From: Clostridiaceae bacterium
GTDB lineage: Bacteria; Bacillota; Clostridia; Lachnospirales; Lachnospiraceae
Assembly (NCBI GenBank): GCA_910575795.1
Contig: CAJTGE010000011.1
Coordinates: forward strand, 62,001-126,000
Reading direction: 5' to 3'
DNA length: 64,000 nucleotides
Shown here: in pieces, positions 17,250 to 32,912 of the stretch
Layout: each line of letters begins with the position of its first letter
Position numbering within the stretch: the first letter of the stretch is position 1
Made by a program: the position numbers and the translations under genes
The notes under the pieces: generated by a model
Database searches by the model: none
What the model saw: only the letters and a program-made list of their open reading frames with translations
What the model was told of the DNA's origin: nothing

Positions 17250-18131
17250 ATGAACAGAATTGCAACCGAACGCAAGCGTCTGGATCTCACTCAAGAAGAA
17301 TTAGCTGAAAAGCTGAATATTTCCCAAAAGTCAATAAGCAAATACGAAACCGGAGCCCGTAAGCCATCTTTTGAAACTTTGACGGAAATGGCGAAACTAT
17401 TCAATGTTTCTACGGATTATCTATTAGGAATATCCGATTCAAGAACAGGAAATAGTGGGCTATTTGCCGACACGCCTTTCCCCAGAAGAACTATTGGCAG
17501 CGCTATCAGACTATGGATAGGAAAAACCGGCTTCGGTGATGATGAAATTGCTGAAATGCTTGGAATTTCAGAGGAATTATTAAAGAGCTATTATTCAGGT
17601 GAAAGTATGCCATTGGAAACGCTGGTGAAATTATCAGAAATATGCGAGGTTTCAACGGATTGTTTGCTTGGCCTGCGAGAAAAGACCAGGCCGAAACAAG
17701 ATGGAGCATACCCATTCCGATTTGACCCGGAGATCTCCCGGCGTCTGAAAGACCAAATGCAGCGGATGGGAGAAAGCTATTCCCAAATAGCCGCTGCCAT
17801 AGGAATTGAGGAAGAAGAAATGTTTGATTTTCTGGAATACGGCTTTGTTCCCCATATCTCTGTTTTTGCCCAGATAGTGGAGCATTTTCTGGTATCCTCT
17901 GACTTCCTACTCAACAGAACAGGCAGCACTATAACCATACAGGAAGATGAAGAAGAACTTTTGCTCTCATACCGAGCACTTAACTCCAAAAGCAAAACAA
18001 TGGCTCTTTCACGAATTTACGAACTGGAAAGGGAAGAAGAATCCTTAGTTGCAGCTAAGAATCGTTACCTGGACAGAGAGGGAAAATCCTTGCCTTCGAG
18101 TGGTACCGGAGGCGGCACAATGGTGGGTTAA
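17250..18131 (+). CDS. CI-like repressor with several helix-turn-helix domains
   Basis: 293 aa behind AGGAGGTATTTT. Residues 4-63 are a classical XRE domain (LTQEELAEKLNISQKSISKYETGARKPSF, ending VSTDYLLG). A second, weaker one lies at about 85-143 (FGDDEIAEMLGISEELLKSYYSG, ending VSTDCLLG). A third, weaker still, is at about 165-222 (ESYSQIAAAIGIEEEEMFDFLE, ending VSSDFLL). The triple VS(T/S)D(Y/C/F)LL shows repeated duplication. The C-terminus is a helix plus Gly-rich tail with no peptidase domain, so SOS cleavage is not expected. Probably the lysogeny regulator of this element. Confidence 0.8.
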   Translation: MNRIATERKRLDLTQEELAEKLNISQKSISKYETGARKPSFETLTEMAKLFNVSTDYLLGISDSRTGNSGLFADTPFPRRTIGSAIRLWIGKTGFGDDEIAEMLGISEELLKSYYSGESMPLETLVKLSEICEVSTDCLLGLREKTRPKQDGAYPFRFDPEISRRLKDQMQRMGESYSQIAAAIGIEEEEMFDFLEYGFVPHISVFAQIVEHFLVSSDFLLNRTGSTITIQEDEEELLLSYRALNSKSKTMALSRIYELEREEESLVAAKNRYLDREGKSLPSSGTGGGTMVG

Positions 18132-18204
18132 AAAAAATAGCACGTTTGTCGATTCAGGCAGTATAAGATAAAACCATGTGTTTTAACAGTACAATTTGAC
18201 AGCG

Positions 18205-18230
18205 GGCGGCCATTGTGCCGCCTTTTATTT
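18205..18230 (+). terminator. Terminator downstream of the CI-like gene
   Basis: GGCGGC (18205-18210) pairs with GCCGCC (18217-18222) and is followed by TTTTATTTT. The right arm can also pair over a longer distance with GGCGGCACAATGG at the end of the repressor gene (18110-18122), a 13-bp perfect inverted repeat with CCATTGTGCCGCC. The integrase begins 16 nt further on and so may need read-through or its own promoter. Confidence 0.6.
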
Positions 18231-18245
18231 TAGGAGTGTGATCGC

Positions 18246-19625
18246 ATGCCCGTATATAAGGACAAAAAACGGAATACCTGGTACTGCCAGTTTTATTATA
18301 AGGACTGGACCGGGAAAAGCAAACAAAAGCGGAAGCGTGGATTTTCCACCCAAAGAGAAGCAAAGGAATGGGAGCGCAATTTTCTCAACACTCTGCAGAC
18401 GAATTCCGATATTACATTCGCTGCCCTGGTAAACAACTATATGGAGGATCTGGCAACACGTCTGAAGCCTACCACTATGGAAACCAAAAGGAGTATTATT
18501 GAAGATAAGCTGCTTCCCTACTTCAAAGATATGAAAATATGTGATATAGATGAACTGGCTGTCCGCCGCTGGCAGAACGAATTGCTGGATTACCGGAACG
18601 ATAAAGGCAAACCTTTTTCCGATACCTATTTAAAAACCATCAATAATCAGCTTTCGGCCATACTGAATTATGCTATAGTCTATTATAAGCTGGCAAAGAA
18701 TCCCTGCAGAGCAGTAGGCTCCATTGGCAAGTCAAACGCTTCCGCAATGCAGATCTGGACTCTCGATCAGTTTGAACAGTTCATTGGATATGAAAAAAAG
18801 GCAGCCGGCCGGCTGGCTTTCAATGTCCTGTTCTGGTCCGGCATCCGGGAGGGGGAGCTTCTGGCGCTTACCAGAAACGATTTCATTCACAGCGGCACCG
18901 ATGAATACCGCCTCAATGTCAATAAAAATTTCGAGGTTGTAAAGGGAACTCAATATATTCTTACCCCAAAAACAGATTCCAGCAACCGCTGTATCACAAT
19001 CCCCCAGTTTCTATACTATGAAGCGGTACACTATTTTGATTCCCTCTATGAACCAGATCCGGAGGAACGCCTTTTTTATTTCACAAAAAGTTATCTGCTG
19101 AATGAAATCAAACGAGTGGCAAAAGCTGCCGGACTTAATCCCATAAGAATCCATGACCTCAGGCACTCCCATGCCTCTCTACTGATCGAGATGGGCTTTA
19201 ATATCCTGATGGTATCGCAGCGCTTAGGCCATGAAAAGGTTGAGACAACCTGGCAGACCTATGCACATCTGTATCCGGACAAAGAAAAAATGCTGGCCGC
19301 CCAGTTGGATACTGTGAAAGTACAGGGCATTACCGCCAACTTGACCATCGAAGATCGGCTTGCGGAATTCATGGCTCAGTTCCAAAGCCATCTGAAGGAG
19401 CAGCCGGCTCTTATTGACATAAACAGCGAGGAAATTATCCGATGGGATCCGGAAAAAAGAGAGAAGGCCACCGTTACCGCGGCGGAATTCGAGCAGGAGG
19501 CCCAGCTTGACGAAGGAATTGAAGCCGGCCTTGCCTCAGCAGAAATCTTCCAGGCCGGATACCTTGAACTGTGTGGCATAGTCTATTTCCTTGCCAGCCG
19601 GGGGCTGCCAGCGAAATTTCTTTAA
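18246..19625 (+). CDS. int: Tyrosine-recombinase integrase
   Basis: 459 aa. N-terminal arm-binding domain (PVYKDKKRNTWYCQFYYKD, then KRGFSTQREAKEWE), a core-binding domain (FAALVNNYMEDLATRLKPTT), and the catalytic domain with Arg in SGIREGE, HDLRHSH, LGH, and the nucleophile Tyr in WQTYAHLYP. All catalytic residues are present. The C-terminus extends about 130 residues past the Tyr, longer than most relatives, ending in a hydrophobic segment. Its position next to the guaA 3' end points to that gene as the attachment site. Confidence 0.93.
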   Translation: MPVYKDKKRNTWYCQFYYKDWTGKSKQKRKRGFSTQREAKEWERNFLNTLQTNSDITFAALVNNYMEDLATRLKPTTMETKRSIIEDKLLPYFKDMKICDIDELAVRRWQNELLDYRNDKGKPFSDTYLKTINNQLSAILNYAIVYYKLAKNPCRAVGSIGKSNASAMQIWTLDQFEQFIGYEKKAAGRLAFNVLFWSGIREGELLALTRNDFIHSGTDEYRLNVNKNFEVVKGTQYILTPKTDSSNRCITIPQFLYYEAVHYFDSLYEPDPEERLFYFTKSYLLNEIKRVAKAAGLNPIRIHDLRHSHASLLIEMGFNILMVSQRLGHEKVETTWQTYAHLYPDKEKMLAAQLDTVKVQGITANLTIEDRLAEFMAQFQSHLKEQPALIDINSEEIIRWDPEKREKATVTAAEFEQEAQLDEGIEAGLASAEIFQAGYLELCGIVYFLASRGLPAKFL

Positions 19626-20122: not shown

Positions 20123-20140
20123 TTATTCGAACTCAATCGT
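20123..20140. other. Probable attachment site at the guaA 3' end
   Basis: The last codons of guaA (ending ATTGAGTTCGAATAA on the minus strand) are the expected insertion site for guaA-specific integrases; genomic islands in many Firmicutes use this end and restore the gene. The integrase is the nearest element gene, about 500 bp away, as expected for a right end. The matching copy at the far end is outside the window, so the core cannot be defined. Confidence 0.35.
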
Positions 20141-21664
20141 AGCCGGCGGCTTCCCCGTGCAGTCATACAGCACTCGGTTCACGCCCTTCACCTCATTTAC
20201 GATCCGGCTGCTGACCTTCCCCAGCACCTCCCAGGGCAGGCGGGCGGCTTCTGCTGTCATGAAATCGGAAGTCAGAACCGCGCGCAGCGCAACCGCATAG
20301 TCATATGTCCTGACATCGCCCATGCAGCCCACGGAGCGCATATTGGTGAGCGTTGCAAAATACTGCCCCAGATCCTTTGCAATCCCGGCCTTATCGATCT
20401 CTTCGCGGTAAATCGCATCCGCATCCTGTACAATACGCACCTTTTCAGCTGTTATCTCTCCGATTATGCGGACACCCAGCCCCGGGCCCGGGAAGGGCTG
20501 GCGGTAGACCAGATTCTCCGGAATTCCGAGCTCCAGCCCGGCTTTCCTCACCTCATCCTTAAACAGCATCCTCAAAGGCTCAATAATCTCTTTAAAATCC
20601 ACATGCTCGGGCAGGCCGCCGACATTGTGGTGGGACTTGATCACTGCTGATTTTCCCAGGCCGGACTCTATCACATCCGGATAGATCGTGCCCTGTACAA
20701 AGAAATCGACTGCGCCGATCTTCTTTGCCTCCTCCTCAAAGACGCGGATAAACTCCTCGCCAATAATCTTTCTCTTCTGCTCCGGATCCGTCACTCCCGC
20801 CAGCTTTTTGTAGAAGCGCTCCTGCGCGTTCACGCGGATGAAATTCAGATGGTAGGGGCCGGACGACCCGAATACGGCCTCCACCTCATCGCCTTCATTT
20901 TTGCGGAGCAGGCCGTGATCAACAAACACGCATGTGAGCTGCTCGCCGATTGCCCTGGCCATCAAAACGCCGGCTACGGAGGAATCCACGCCGCCGGAAA
21001 GCGCCAAAAGGGCGCGTCCATTTCCTACCTTTTCGCGGATAGACTGTATCGAGCTCTCCACAAATGCATCCATCTTCCAGTCGCCGGAGCAGCCGCAGAT
21101 ATTGTATACAAAATTCGAGAGCATCTTTGCGCCTTCAACGGTATGCATCACCTCCGGATGGGCCTGAATCCCGTACAGGGCTCTTGCTTCATCCTCCATG
21201 CCTGCAATCGGGCAGACCGGCGTATGGCTCGTCGTGCGAAAGCCATCCGGCGCTTTGGCGATATAATCTGTATGGCTCATCCAGCAGATCGTTTTTGGCG
21301 ATACGCCCTCGTAAAGCCTGGACTGCGTATCCACCTCCACCTCTGTCTTCCCGTACTCGCTGACCGGCGCGGTCTCTACTTTACCGTCTAACAGATAAGC
21401 CATGAGCTGTGCGCCGTAGCAGATACCTAAAACAGGAATACCCATATTAAAAATATCTTTGGAGCATCTCGGCGAATCTTCTTTATAAACGCTGTTGGGA
21501 CCGCCTGTAAAAATAATTCCCTTTGGATTCATTTCCTTAATCGCCTCTAATGGCATGCTGTACGGATGCACTTCGCAATACACGCCGCATTCCCTTACTC
21601 TTCTGGCGATGAGCTGATTATACTGGCCTCCAAAATCTAATACGATAATCTTTTCCCTTTCCAC
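20123..21664 (-). CDS. guaA: GMP synthase (glutamine-hydrolysing)
   Basis: 513 aa, the usual length. It converts XMP to GMP with ATP and glutamine in the cytoplasm. The class I amidotransferase domain has the nucleophile Cys in LGICYGAQ (Cys82) and the His-Glu pair in GIQAHPEV. The ATP pyrophosphatase domain has [10 protein letters not shown], and the C-terminal dimerisation domain ends PPATIEFE. The start is GTG with GCAGGAGGAATACTT before it. It is monocistronic: the upstream side is a cluster of palindromic elements. The 3' end is intact, consistent with an integration event that preserved the reading frame. Confidence 0.97.
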
Positions 21665-21746: not shown

Positions 21747-21912
21747 CTAGAGCGTGTTTGAAAATTCATTCCTGGCATCTGCACGCCCCACTTCGCGGTA
21801 TATTTGTGCCAAATTCACTTAACGTAGCCCACTACGCCGCGTTCATTTGGCACAAATCTCCCACAAAGTGGCACGCACAGCTACCAGAAAGCAATTTTCA
21901 AACACGCTCTAG
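21747..21912. repeat. Palindromic element type A, copy 1
   Basis: A 166-bp imperfect palindrome bounded by CTAG at both ends. The arms are CTAGAGCGTGTTTGAAAA and its complement TTTTCAAACACGCTCTAG; inner arms (TTGTGCCAAAT...ATTTGGCACAA) continue the stem. The centre is GTAGCCCACTAC. No coding potential. The right-hand CTAG is shared with the next element. Confidence 0.85.
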
Positions 21913-22074
21913 TACAGCATTGCATTAATTCACGAGTAAACAGCACTCGCTATCCGCGCCCTCTGCACGCCTGCGAAGCTAGCTGTAGGCTCCACTACGC
22001 CGTCGCTTCGCAGACGTACAGATGACACGAATATCAAGCGATTTTACTCGTTAATTTATGCAACACTGTACTAG
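21909..22074. repeat. Palindromic element type B, copy 1
   Basis: A 166-bp palindrome from CTAGTACAGCATTGCATTAA to TGCAACACTGTACTAG. The stem includes GCGAAGC...GCTTCGC around the centre GTAGGCTCCACTAC. Both CTAG ends are shared with the neighbouring elements (types A and D). Confidence 0.85.
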
Positions 22075-22180
22075 TATAAATGATTTTAATTAGCTTTATG
22101 TTATTCTGTCGAAAGAACAGGTACATCACTATGCCCAAGATATTTTATATCATAAAGTTATTTGAAATCACTTATACTAG
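22071..22180. repeat. Palindromic element type D
   Basis: A 110-bp AT-rich palindrome, CTAGTATAAATGATTTTAAT on the left and the near-complement AAATCACTTATACTAG on the right, with arms of about 30 bp carrying a few mismatches. It fills exactly the space between element B1 and element A2, sharing CTAG on both sides. Confidence 0.75.
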
Positions 22181-22342
22181 AGCGTGTTTGAAAAATCATT
22201 CCCGCCATCTGCACGCCCCACTTTGCGGTATATTTGGGCCAAATTCACTTAACGCAGCCCACTGCGCCGCGTTTATTTGGCCCAAATCTCCCACAAAGTG
22301 GAACGCACATCTGACAGAAAGCATTTTTCAAACACGCTCTAG
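22177..22342. repeat. Palindromic element type A, copy 2
   Basis: A 166-bp copy of type A with the same ends (CTAGAGCGTGTTTGAAAA) and centre GCAGCCCACTGC. The G-C pair exchanges in the centre relative to copy 1 are compensatory, so the hairpin itself seems to be maintained. Confidence 0.85.
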
Positions 22343-22502
22343 AGCGTTGCTTAAATTTCAGTGAATACATTGCTTGATATCGGTGTCATCTGTGCGTCTG
22401 CGAAGCGACGGCGTAGTGGCGCCTACGTCTAGCTTCGCAGGCGTGCAGAGGGCGCTGATAGCGAGTGATTTATTCACTGGAATTTAGGCAATGCTGTACT
22501 AG
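22339..22502. repeat. Palindromic element type B, diverged copy 2
   Basis: A 164-bp element in the opposite orientation to copy 1. It runs from CTAGAGCGTTGCTTAAATT to GGCAATGCTGTACTAG, keeps the CTGCGAAGC/GCTTCGCAG stem, and has the centre GTAGTGGCGCCTAC. CTAG is shared on both sides. Confidence 0.8.
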
Positions 22503-22598
22503 TACAGCATTTTTTAAATAACCGGACTATAAAAACACTATATCTATAGGTGTTTTCGGCTATAATAAAGTCCAGTTAATTAGTGAACGATGTACTAG
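22499..22598. repeat. Palindromic element type C
   Basis: A 100-bp palindrome from CTAGTACAGCATTTTTTAAA to GAACGATGTACTAG. Inner complementary segments are CCGGACT/AGTCCAG and AAACACTATA/TATAGGTGTTT. It closes the six-element row between guaA and uvrA; from 22599 to 22724 I see only a short non-coding stretch. Confidence 0.75.
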
Positions 22599-22724: not shown

Positions 22725-25568
22725 TTAACTGGATTCCTGCGCGCGTTCCAGATAACGCTTCACATACTGCCCCGTATATGAGGCCGGGTTTTCCGCCACT
22801 TCCTCCGGCGTTCCCTTTGCGATGACCGTGCCTCCCTGATCGCCGCCTTCCGGCCCGATGTCGATGATATAGTCTGCTGTCTTGATCACGTCCAGGTTGT
22901 GCTCAATGACCAGCACCGTGTTTCCTCCGTCGGACAGCCGCCTCAGTATCTCGATCAGCTTGTGGACATCCGCAAAGTGCAGGCCCGTGGTCGGCTCGTC
23001 CAGGATATAGATGGTTTTCCCGGTTCCCCGCTTGCTCAGCTCCGTCGCCAGCTTGATGCGCTGCGCCTCGCCGCCGGACAGCTCCGTGGACGGCTGGCCT
23101 AACCGGATATAGGAAAGCCCCACGTCGTAAAGCGTCTCGATCTTCCGGTGGATGGAGGGGATATTCTCAAAAAAGTGCAGTGCTTCTTCGACGGTCATAT
23201 TCAGCACGTCATAGATGCTTTTTCCTTTGTATTTGACCTCCAGCGTTTCGCGGTTATAGCGTTTTCCGCCGCAGACCTCGCAGGGCACATAGATATCCGG
23301 TAGAAAATGCATCTCGATCTTGATGATGCCGTCCCCGGCGCAGGCTTCGCAGCGGCCGCCTTTTTTATTAAAGCTGAAGCGGCCCTTATTATAGCCTTTT
23401 GCCTTTGCGTCCGTGGAGGCGGCAAAGAGATCACGGATCAGATCAAACGCGCCGGTATACGTCGCCGGGTTCGAGCGGGGCGTGCGGCCAATAGGCGACT
23501 GATCGATGGCAATCACCTTGTCAAGCTGCTCAGTCCCCTCTATGCCCTTGTGCTTTCCCGGTATGGTATGGGCGCGGTTCAGCTTCTTAGCCAGGGCCTT
23601 GTAGAGTATCTCATTTACCAGGGAGCTCTTTCCGGAGCCTGACACGCCGGTCACACAGGTCATCACCCCAAGAGGGATGTCCACATTGATGTTTTTTAAA
23701 TTGTTTTCCGCCGCCCCGCGCACCTTGAGCCAGCCGGCCGGCTTTCTCCTCTTTTCCGGGATCGGAATCCGGATGCGGCCGCTTAGGTAAGCCCCTGTCA
23801 CTGACTCTTCACACTGCATGATCTCCTCTGCCGTTCCCACAGCCACCACCCTGCCGCCGTGTTCACCGGCTCCGGGGCCGATATCGACGATACAGTCCGC
23901 GGCGAGCATGGTGTCCTCGTCGTGCTCCACGACCAGCACGGAATTCCCCAAATCCCGCAGATGCATCAGGGTCTGCAAAAGCTTGTCATTATCCCTCTGA
24001 TGCAGGCCGATGCTCGGCTCGTCGAGAATATACGCCACGCCCACCAGTCCGGATCCAATCTGCGTTGCCAGACGGATCCGCTGCGCCTCGCCGCCGGAGA
24101 GCGTGCCTGTGGCCCGCGAAAGGGAGAGATACTCCAGGCCGACGTTGATAAGAAATGACACTCTGGCGCGGATCTCCTTTAAAATCGGCGCTCCGATCGC
24201 CTCCTGCATGGGCGTCAGAGTCAAGTCGTCCATGAATTCACGGAATTTCACGATCGACATATTCGTCGCCTGAAAGATATTCTTGTCTCCCACTGTTACT
24301 GCCAGGGATTCCTTTTTCAGACGCTGTCCCTTACACGTCGCGCAGGGCGTAATCCGCATAAAGGTTTCATATTCCGCCTTCATCGTCTCTGAAAACGTCT
24401 CCCTGTATTTGCGGTTCATGCTCTGGATCAAACCCTCAAAGGAAATGTCATAGACGCCCTCGCCGCGCTGTCCCTTATACCGCACTTTTACGGATCTGCC
24501 GTTCGTCCCGTGCAGCAGGACATCGTGGATCTCCTGCGGGTAATCCTGGAACGGCGTGTCCAGATCAAAGCGGTACTCCTCAGCCAGAGCCGCGAGGATC
24601 GCTCCGGTAAAGCTTCCCTTGTCTGTACATGACTGCCACCCCATAGCCGTGATGGCTCCCTGGCTGATGCTTAAGCTCTTGTCCGGGATCAGCAGATCTT
24701 CGTCAAACTCCATCTTATACCCCAGTCCAAAGCAGTCCGGGCACGCGCCAAACGGGTTATTAAACGAAAAGCTTCTCGGCTCCACCTCGTCCACGCTGAT
24801 CCCGCAGTCCGGGCAGGAGAAATTCTGGCTGAAGGTGAGCGGCTCGCCGCCGAACACATCGACGGTCATCAGTCCGTTTGTCAGGCCCATAACCGTCTCA
24901 ATCGAGTCGGAAAGGCGTTTTTCAATGCCCTCCTTGACCACGATTCGATCCACCACGATCTCGATATTATGCTTTATATTCTTGTCCAGGGAAATGGTTT
25001 CCGTCAGCTCGTATAAGTTTCCGTCAATCCGCACACGGACGTAGCCGCTCTTTTTTGCCTGCTCCAGCACCTTTTCATGACGCCCTTTCCTTCCCCGCAC
25101 CATGGGGGCCAGAAGCTGCAGCCTCGTCTTCTCCGGCATGGCCATAATCTGATCCACCATCTGATCCACGGTCTGCCGGCGGATCTCGCGCCCGCATTTG
25201 GGACAGTGCGGTATCCCGATCCGCGCGTAGAGAAGGCGCATGTAATCATAGATCTCCGTCACTGTCCCCACCGTCGAACGAGGGTTCCGGTTTGTCGATT
25301 TCTGATCAATGGAAATAGCGGGGGACAATCCCTCTATGCTCTCCACGTCCGGCTTCTCCATCTGTCCCAGAAACTGCCTTGCGTAGGAGGAGAGGGATTC
25401 CATATAGCGTCTCTGCCCTTCCGCATAGATCGTGTCAAACGCAAGGGAGGACTTTCCCGAACCGGATAAGCCGGTCAGAACGACCAGCTCATCCCTTGGG
25501 ATATTCAGAGAAATGTTCTTTAGGTTGTGCTCATTCGCACCACGTATTTTGATATACTGCTTTGCCAT
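22725..25568 (-). CDS. uvrA: Excinuclease ABC subunit A
   Basis: 947 aa, normal length for the damage-recognition ATPase of nucleotide excision repair. Two ABC modules are complete: Walker [10 protein letters not shown] near residue 34 and GVSGSGKSS near 640, with two signature sequences of the type LSGGEAQRI, and two zinc modules (HCPKCGREI and later CEACAGDG...CEVCGGKRY). The UvrB-contact region between the first Walker A and the first zinc module is present. Transcribed alone from a promoter overlapped by an SOS box; uvrB is not adjacent. Confidence 0.97.
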
Positions 25569-32585: not shown

Positions 32586-32749
32586 AGAGCGTGTTTGAAA
32601 ATTGCTTTCTGGTAGCTGTGCGTGCCACTTTGTGGGAGATTTGTGCCAAATGAACGCGGCGCAGTGGGCTGCGTTAAGTGAATTTGGCACAAATATACCG
32701 CGAAGTGGGGCGTGCAGATGCCAGGAATGAATTTTCAAACACGCTCTAG
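32586..32749. repeat. Palindromic element type A, copy 3
   Basis: A 164-bp copy in the opposite orientation to copy 1 (AGAGCGTGTTTGAAAATTGC at the left, TTTTCAAACACGCTCTAG at the right), centre GCAGTGGGCTGC. The left end lacks the C of CTAG (reads CCAGAG). Directly abuts type B copy 3 through a shared CTAG. Confidence 0.85.
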
Positions 32750-32912
32750 TACAGTATTGCATTAATTCGCGAGTAAACAGCACTCGCTATCCGCGCCCTC
32801 TGCACGCCTGCAAAGCTAGCCGTAGACTCCACTATGCCGTCGCTTCGCAGACGCACAGATGACACGAATATCAATCGCTTTTTACTTGCAAATTAATGCA
32901 ACGCTGTACTAG
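32746..32912. repeat. Palindromic element type B, copy 3
   Basis: A 167-bp copy, same orientation as B copy 1 and again directly to the right of a type A element. Its right end (TTAATGCAACGCTGTACTAG) runs into the mogA reading frame and provides that gene's last residues and its TAA stop (32893-32895). Confidence 0.85.

Follow-up and report, generated by a model that had tools for sequence, protein, structure and literature searches.

In the window, by which we mean the whole 64,000-nucleotide stretch of DNA analysed (C11:62001-126000 of a 6.23-Mb draft assembly in 273 contigs), two frames on the minus strand at 20123-21664 and 22725-25568, which we take by eye to be guaA and uvrA, flank a chain of six palindromic units. 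The chain begins with element A (21747-21912, 166 bp, plus strand), which has IS5-type ends and 160 bp between its flanking TAs, followed by element B (21909-22074, 166 bp, plus strand), with IS630-type ends and 160 bp between TAs, and element D (22071-22180, 110 bp, unstranded), with 104 bp between TAs and ends that begin GTATAA. A second A, here A' (22177-22342, 166 bp, plus strand), has the orientation of the first, and is followed by a second, inverted B, here B' (22339-22502, 164 bp, minus strand), whose left end is three bases short, and by element C (22499-22598, 100 bp, unstranded), with 94 bp between TAs and IS630-like ends that begin GTAC. CTAG is found at both ends of all six units, and each junction is a single unstranded CTAG common to two neighbours, at 21909-21912 (A to B), 22071-22074 (B to D), 22177-22180 (D to A'), 22339-22342 (A' to B'), and 22499-22502 (B' to C). 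The description in an earlier note on this DNA, of six palindromes abutting through shared CTAGs, therefore stands for all six units and five junctions, with the qualification that the B' end is incomplete where it meets A': B' begins there with CTAG-AGCGTTGC and at its opposite end with CTAG-TACAGCATTGC, the three bases TAC being gone.

The identity of the six units to their own reverse complements ranges from 0.71 to 0.77, whereas 400 random 166-mers of the window have a median of 0.58 and reach 0.71 at most, although the value for D, 0.71, only equals the random maximum and both D and C are shorter than the 166-mers used for comparison. A and A' are identical at 152 of 166 positions and differ at 14, and B and B', once inverted, agree in 140 of 169 alignment columns. 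Given these differences and the inversion of B relative to B', the array is not a tandem duplication.

By size and ends the six units are MITEs: they measure 94-161 bp between TAs, have inverted ends, and contain no transposase gene. Elements of this kind are present at some homologous sites and absent from others, and the ends of A and B match those of autonomous elements (at loci L170 and L133, respectively). The chain is thus one of MITEs, i.e., non-autonomous transposons, and not a fixed block. Serial insertion of small non-autonomous elements at CTAG, as the earlier note had suggested, is supported, since A and B also occur singly elsewhere in the genome and in other combinations. Another chain in the window begins with a further A element (32587-32746, minus strand, left target CCAG), which is joined through one CTAG to a B element (32749-32909, unstranded). 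Adjoining guaA on its other side, the region 17250-19625 appears by eye to encode an integrase of phage type together with a repressor-like protein, and may be one edge of an integrated element.

Terminal repeats and target sites

An 879-bp IS5-family element with A-type ends on both sides was found in another genus of the family (L170, 1665-2543), where it adjoins a 160-bp A element directly through one CTAG, and a second 879-bp element with A-type ends was found in another genus (L173, 1503-2381). In the L170 element, each of two overlapping frames matches one half of the IS5-family model NF033580 (E values of 2.2e-40 and 6.5e-42), with further matches to DUF4096 and DDE_Tnp_1. Judged by these ends, the terminal repeats of A are those of an IS5-family insertion sequence whose two frames overlap. 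The second frame of the L170 element has a match in 5 of 20 selected A-bearing genomes (G125, G416, G202, G303, and G050). No relatives of this transposase were detected in any of the eight genomes comprising our own genome and its genus at E 1e-20, nor in four genomes of the genus at the looser E 1e-10, with G125 serving as a positive control; our own assembly is a draft. This implies that the mobiliser of A in the genus is lost or absent, unassembled, or diverged.

The target sites of A were tabulated from a 1.10-Mb sample of our own genome (57 pieces, picked mostly for copies of A), from a sample of about 1.18 Mb (60 pieces) of the same-genus genome G002, and from other loci; counts from both samples are biased toward element-bearing regions. 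The 54 complete A elements of our own sample are flanked by CTAG in 40 cases, TTAG in 5, CTAA in 4, and CTAC in 1, with the TA lost on one side in 4. For the 14 elements of G002 the corresponding counts are TTAG 6, CTAG 5, CTAA 1, and lost 2, and for 63 elements at other loci CTAG 54, TTAG 4, CTAA 1, GTAG 1, and lost 3. Immediately inside the TA, 119 of 121 A ends of our own sample have a G, and the outer triplet is TTA in 11 and CTA in 101. The outer base changes on only one side of a given element, giving TTAG or CTAA, while the inner G is constant, and the duplicated target of A is therefore TA within YTAR. A duplication of four bases would carry the outer variation to the inner side as well, and the four-base CTAG duplication originally proposed for the chain must therefore be given up in the case of A.

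For B, genome G023 contains a 1366-bp element (L133) that lies between TAs, ends on both sides in the same 18 bp, GTACATCATTGCATTAAT, and matches the IS630-family model NF033545 in two frames (E values of 4.2e-33 and 4.5e-12). In two B copies of G002 (L208 and L210) all 18 terminal bases are those of the L133 element, and the B ends in the window differ from them at a few bases. Truncated or degenerate IS630 copies with B-like ends are present in our own genome (L131 and L134), and further IS630-family copies at L108 and L113 are bounded by CTAG; all own-genome IS630 copies that were inspected are truncated, frameshifted, or stop-containing. A comparison of termini thus assigns to B the terminal repeats of an IS630-family insertion sequence. 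TA is found on both sides of B, which would fit a duplication of TA or of CTAG alike. From their flanks, both A- and B-type elements sit at TA within YTAR, mostly CTAG. The ends of D had no match among the autonomous elements found, and those of C are only similar to IS630 ends. The broken IS630 element of L108 contains a unit of 110 bp that resembles D in its ends and length. The search for insertion sequences with matching terminal repeats that the earlier note had proposed thus identified the IS5-family element of L170 for A and the IS630-family element of L133 for B.

A third transposase family was also encountered at this target. A complete IS701-family element (L070, 8679-10168; G000:C15:76679-78168), whose match to NF033540 (E value of 3.6e-93) is the only one in the genome, is inserted exactly at the terminal CTAG of an A copy, and CTAG also bounds a relative in G007. 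However, the ends of the L070 and G007 elements are unlike those of A and B, and none of the six units has L070 ends, so IS701 was rejected as a general mobiliser. Seven further DDE_5 loci of the genus have no CTAG-bounded ends. REP and REPIN sequences are built of short REP hairpins with a RAYT (Y1) transposase and have no terminal repeats of a DDE element; given the DDE-type ends and TA flanks of the units, this assignment was also rejected. A separate repeat of 191-192 bp with inverted GAATAAC ends and CGTA/TACG flanks (L063, 12909-13100; L140, 82-272) lies outside the CTAG group.

Empty sites and alternative explanations

To what extent insertion into CTAG is reflected in unoccupied homologues was examined at ten events with an empty homologue spanning the junction, seven of them flanked by CTAG and three by TTAG or CTAA. 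At the site of the chain, all six units are absent from the corresponding gap of G002, where the flanks meet at the four bases CCGG; this is the weakest case, with a gapped alignment of 65% identity. The other CTAG-flanked sites correspond to CGAG (L059), CTGG (L070, 16770), CCAG (L206, 12252), CCAG (L210), CGGG (L232), and CCAG (L056, a 99% identical paralogue in our own genome). CTAG was therefore present in none of the seven empty homologues, or in none of five if the two gapped sites, i.e., the window chain and the L210 chain (with 9 bases of right flank before the gap), are set aside, contrary to the expectation in the earlier note that empty sites would hold exactly one CTAG. As for the TTAG- and CTAA-flanked events, a host repeat retains TTAG, L058 does not (TTCA), and L069 (9235) retains TA or not depending on the placement of a one-base gap. 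Four paralogous G002 copies of the host repeat were counted as one event, and L049, L051, L060, L063, L067, the B copy of L069, L071, L083, and L222 were left out, their alignments being gapped or ambiguous at the junction. In the loci on the uvrA side of seven relatives, neither A nor GTAC-type ends were found (in G007 the gap to guaA exceeds the stretch covered).

Insertion into an ancestral CTAG was thus not directly seen, which argues against the simple version of the model. Since the homologous flanks meet precisely at those four bases, our reading is that these CTAGs would have newly arisen by mutation and then been filled by elements. Free CTAGs in permissive DNA would be filled quickly, so that those still open are constrained ones. 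Two further observations were made at homologous sites. At L230, the G002 homologue of an A site at L071 (9189-9348), the corresponding position shows what looks to be the remnant of an A end, perhaps left by an earlier insertion common to both genomes. In addition, a dispersed repeat with GGTCTTTTCGAGCTTAGCGTCCGCTGCGCT occurs at the G002 loci L193, L196, L202, and L206 and at several loci of our own genome; the four G002 copies of this host repeat carry an A element at its TTAG, and the two appear to have been dispersed jointly.

The same empty sites could be explained in another way, by an enzyme that inserts at Y-NN-R with elements that bring their own TA, so that NN is replaced by TA on either side of the insertion. 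Consistent with this, a different central dinucleotide is found in all seven CTAG-flanked homologues (CG, GA, TG, CA, CA, GG, and CA), two of them within flanks that are 98-99% identical (L070 and L056). By contrast, unoccupied noncoding CTAGs retain TA in 8 of 8 cases from our own genome to G002 (the whole word in 7 of 8) and in 7 of 7 in the reverse direction, largely at the same sites; these counts are limited to sites whose flanks agree at 20 or more of 24 bases, a filter that was not applied to occupied sites, and unoccupied coding CTAGs retain TA in 4 of 9 and 2 of 2. However, five of the seven dinucleotides are one substitution away from TA, and four of these are transitions, CA or TG, as would result from mutation, while the TTAG-flanked host-repeat site clearly retains TA. 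Moreover, by reasoning rather than calculation, random hits at Y-NN-R would almost never fall on the ends of existing elements, yet 16 such junctions were seen, and the scheme is at odds with the known chemistry of the IS5 and IS630 families. We therefore regard it as unlikely, though it has more in its favor than the alternatives that follow.

The mobilisation of all elements by one IS5-group transposase that duplicates the four bases CTAG is another possible account, and in the cited literature IS5 itself is described as duplicating YTAR, mostly CTAG (PMC5493358), and a 100-nt MITE with CTAG or YTAA duplication, MITEPsy1, is on record (PMC3189936). The asymmetric outer bases and constant inner G of A point instead to a two-base duplication, and the identity of the B ends with those of an IS630-family element rules out a single IS5 enzyme for B. 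An IS5-group mobiliser, as suggested in the earlier note, accordingly fits A, whose ends are those of the NF033580-matching L170 element, but not B, and C only resembles IS630; as a general explanation it is quite improbable. Slightly better placed, but still improbable, is the idea that the hairpins are functional RNAs or terminators under selection, with mobility incidental. The predicted folds of the types of ~160 bp reach -59 to -117 kcal/mol, the length distribution is narrow, and 16 of 47 classified chains of our own genome lie between convergent genes compared to 78 of 430 gaps longer than 60 bp, as judged by crude ORF calling. Against it, no Rfam family reached its gathering score on the chain, nor, tRNAs apart, at five other element-bearing loci; presence and absence differ between close relatives; and 15 of 66 chains lie inside long ORFs as called by the same crude means. 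Finally, the chain could be a composite repeat that moves or is duplicated as a block, and some repeats do travel with an A inside, such as the G002 host repeat with its TTAG target. Given the solitary and otherwise combined copies of A and B, the 14 differences in 166 between the A copies, and the inverted, divergent B copies, we give this possibility very little credence.

Mixed junctions and probable growth of chains

Copies of A are abundant in our own genome, where the A terminus (up to 3 mismatches) was found 89 times in forward and 91 times in reverse orientation, compared to 3 and 3 for a reversed control pattern. The chain sequence was matched in the same-genus genomes G002, G003, and G007, but not in G001 or G004-G006. 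Family-wide, 25 of 397 genomes, from 24 of 334 genera, contain an exact match to the A terminus plus its TA, and no control match was among those listed. No match to the chain was found in plasmid records, in which the IS5 element had three weak matches; phage records contained two partial matches to the chain and six records matching the IS5 element, and the A terminus occurred in three stretches of viral contigs.

Junctions that share a TA number 16, among 181 recognised ends, in the 1.10-Mb sample of our own genome, a minimum figure, given that the end patterns used fit no more than 3 of the 5 junctions in the window chain, and 12, among 101 ends, in the G002 sample. An A end is joined to another type in 11 of the 16 and in 10 of the 12. 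A 22-mer spanning the junction of an A end with GTACA was found in at least 109 stretches of genome contigs, with the caveat that GTACA may follow CTAG by chance, and the matches listed include [Clostridium] citroniae, Blautia, Lacrimispora, Murimonas, and Parablautia. Of 110 such junctions, 27 could be closed by an inverted repeat on the GTAC side, 17 of them at 159-161 bp. On their A side, the closed length was 159-161 bp in 31 and 876-879 bp in two, with 51 giving no clear closure. As far as can be read from these matches, mixed junctions of A ends with GTACA-type ends recur in other genomes.

Outside catalogued elements, CTAG is scarce in our own sample, with 69 occurrences in coding DNA against 395 expected and 49 in noncoding DNA against 123 expected, several of the 49 being ends of truncated or uncatalogued elements. 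Each transposase would act in trans on the hairpins bearing its ends. An insertion of the form C-TA-[element]-TA-G would leave CTAG on both flanks, and element ends, being among the commonest CTAGs that remain, would serve as landing sites for an IS5- or IS630-type enzyme. Given that CTAG is scarce, that both element types lie mostly at CTAG, and that each insertion leaves two CTAGs, mixed chains can grow. We therefore consider it probable, from the sequences compared here, that the locus is a mixed chain of hairpin MITEs with IS5- and IS630-type ends that has grown by cross-use of one target by unrelated transposases. One point against this best explanation is that, by reasoning rather than calculation, a random choice among all CTAGs present would be expected to yield more than 16 junctions.

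A possible shared hairpin and its relation to known systems

The distance between TAs is 159-161 bp in 148 of 199 catalogued elements from 3.39 Mb of loci, which include copies from overlapping loci and represent 167 distinct sequences. By end type, this length is found in 103 of 138 A, 33 of 38 GTAC, and 7 of 7 GTGTTC elements, with longer A forms in other species, e.g., 181 bp (8 elements). Four types with different ends, E, F, G, and H, share a centre, with 57-87 of the 100 central bases in common compared to a maximum of 46 after shuffling. In ungapped central windows the relation of B with E, F, G, or H is nominal only (p of 0.003-0.05, uncorrected), and the centre of A shows no relation to the other types; its link to IS630-type ends emerged only after other species were added. 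When cores of 110-120 bp, stripped of their ends, were compared between 79 A-type and 41 other elements, 54 pairs had E values below 1e-3 (best 5.8e-8), all 54 in register with the element centre, although these pairs are non-independent and involve 35 A-type and only 4 other elements. Twenty arm-preserving shuffles of the cores gave two pairs in all, the best at 1e-4. Outside the shared centre, arms and ends differ. Some elements with IS5-type ends and some with IS630-type ends thus have a hairpin core in common.

Shared centres could still, if less probably, reflect convergence of short hairpin loops. With some support from the core comparison, we infer that many of the elements belong to a single class of ~160-bp hairpin, alike at the centre, which has swapped its ends in the course of evolution and thereby gained access to different transposases. 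As a speculative candidate for the route, template switching between the arms of neighbouring hairpins could exchange ends, and would keep both arms alike. We propose only tentatively, as a possibility that falls somewhat short of an even chance, that a Lachnospiraceae hairpin of ~160 bp with a conserved centre has changed its transposase through exchange of both ends, with CTAG-joined chains as a possible place of exchange by template switching.

In its parts, the chain is of a known kind; what is unusual is that hairpins of at least two transposase families are joined through one shared CTAG, and the chain may belong to a modular group of hairpins. RUP of Streptococcus pneumoniae, a small element whose mobilisation is ascribed to an IS630 element, is similar to B in being small and linked to IS630, and we know of no RUP hairpin that is shared with elements of another transposase family. 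The closest known system is that of the Bru-RS repeats and IS711 in Brucella, IS711 being a member of the IS5 family. In the cited accounts, IS711 measures 842 bp and has two frames, for which fusion by a -1 frameshift is assumed (PMC2266754, PMC3163539; size also in PMC2267715), it duplicates TA at YTAR with a reported preference for Bru-RS palindromes, and Bru-RS are palindromic repeats of about 103-105 bp (both PMC2266754, PMC3163539). The likeness to element A lies in the palindromic repeats and in the duplication of TA at YTAR. In contrast with Bru-RS, the elements described here are mostly ~160 bp long, have several end types, are linked to at least two transposase families, and form chains of multiple elements that share CTAGs. 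MITEPsy1 of Pseudomonas syringae, as described in the part of the source cited, lies at CTAG or YTAA, is thought to be moved by ISPsy2, which is listed as "IS5?", and is reported to duplicate four bases; mixed chains are not among the features described there (PMC3189936). The IS630 family is described as inserting at TA and duplicating it, and a 1991 title cited in the same source names CTAG as the preferred IS630 site (PMC2170065). Elements of the IS630 and ISY100 (Tc1/mariner) family are autonomous, whereas B is a hairpin with such ends.

In a search of the literature at the level of titles and abstracts, the incomplete coverage of which is not proof of absence, neither CTAG-joined chains of MITEs nor MITEs with exchanged ends were found. 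The usual view of MITEs is that each derives from a single insertion sequence by internal deletion. In the present case, a rare target, mostly one length, and in some cases one centre are common to hairpins linked to unrelated transposases. If our interpretation is correct, it is the target sequence, and not common ancestry, that shapes mixed arrays; unoccupied CTAG sites in permissive DNA would become depleted in these genomes; and by changing its ends a non-autonomous element could outlive its transposase.
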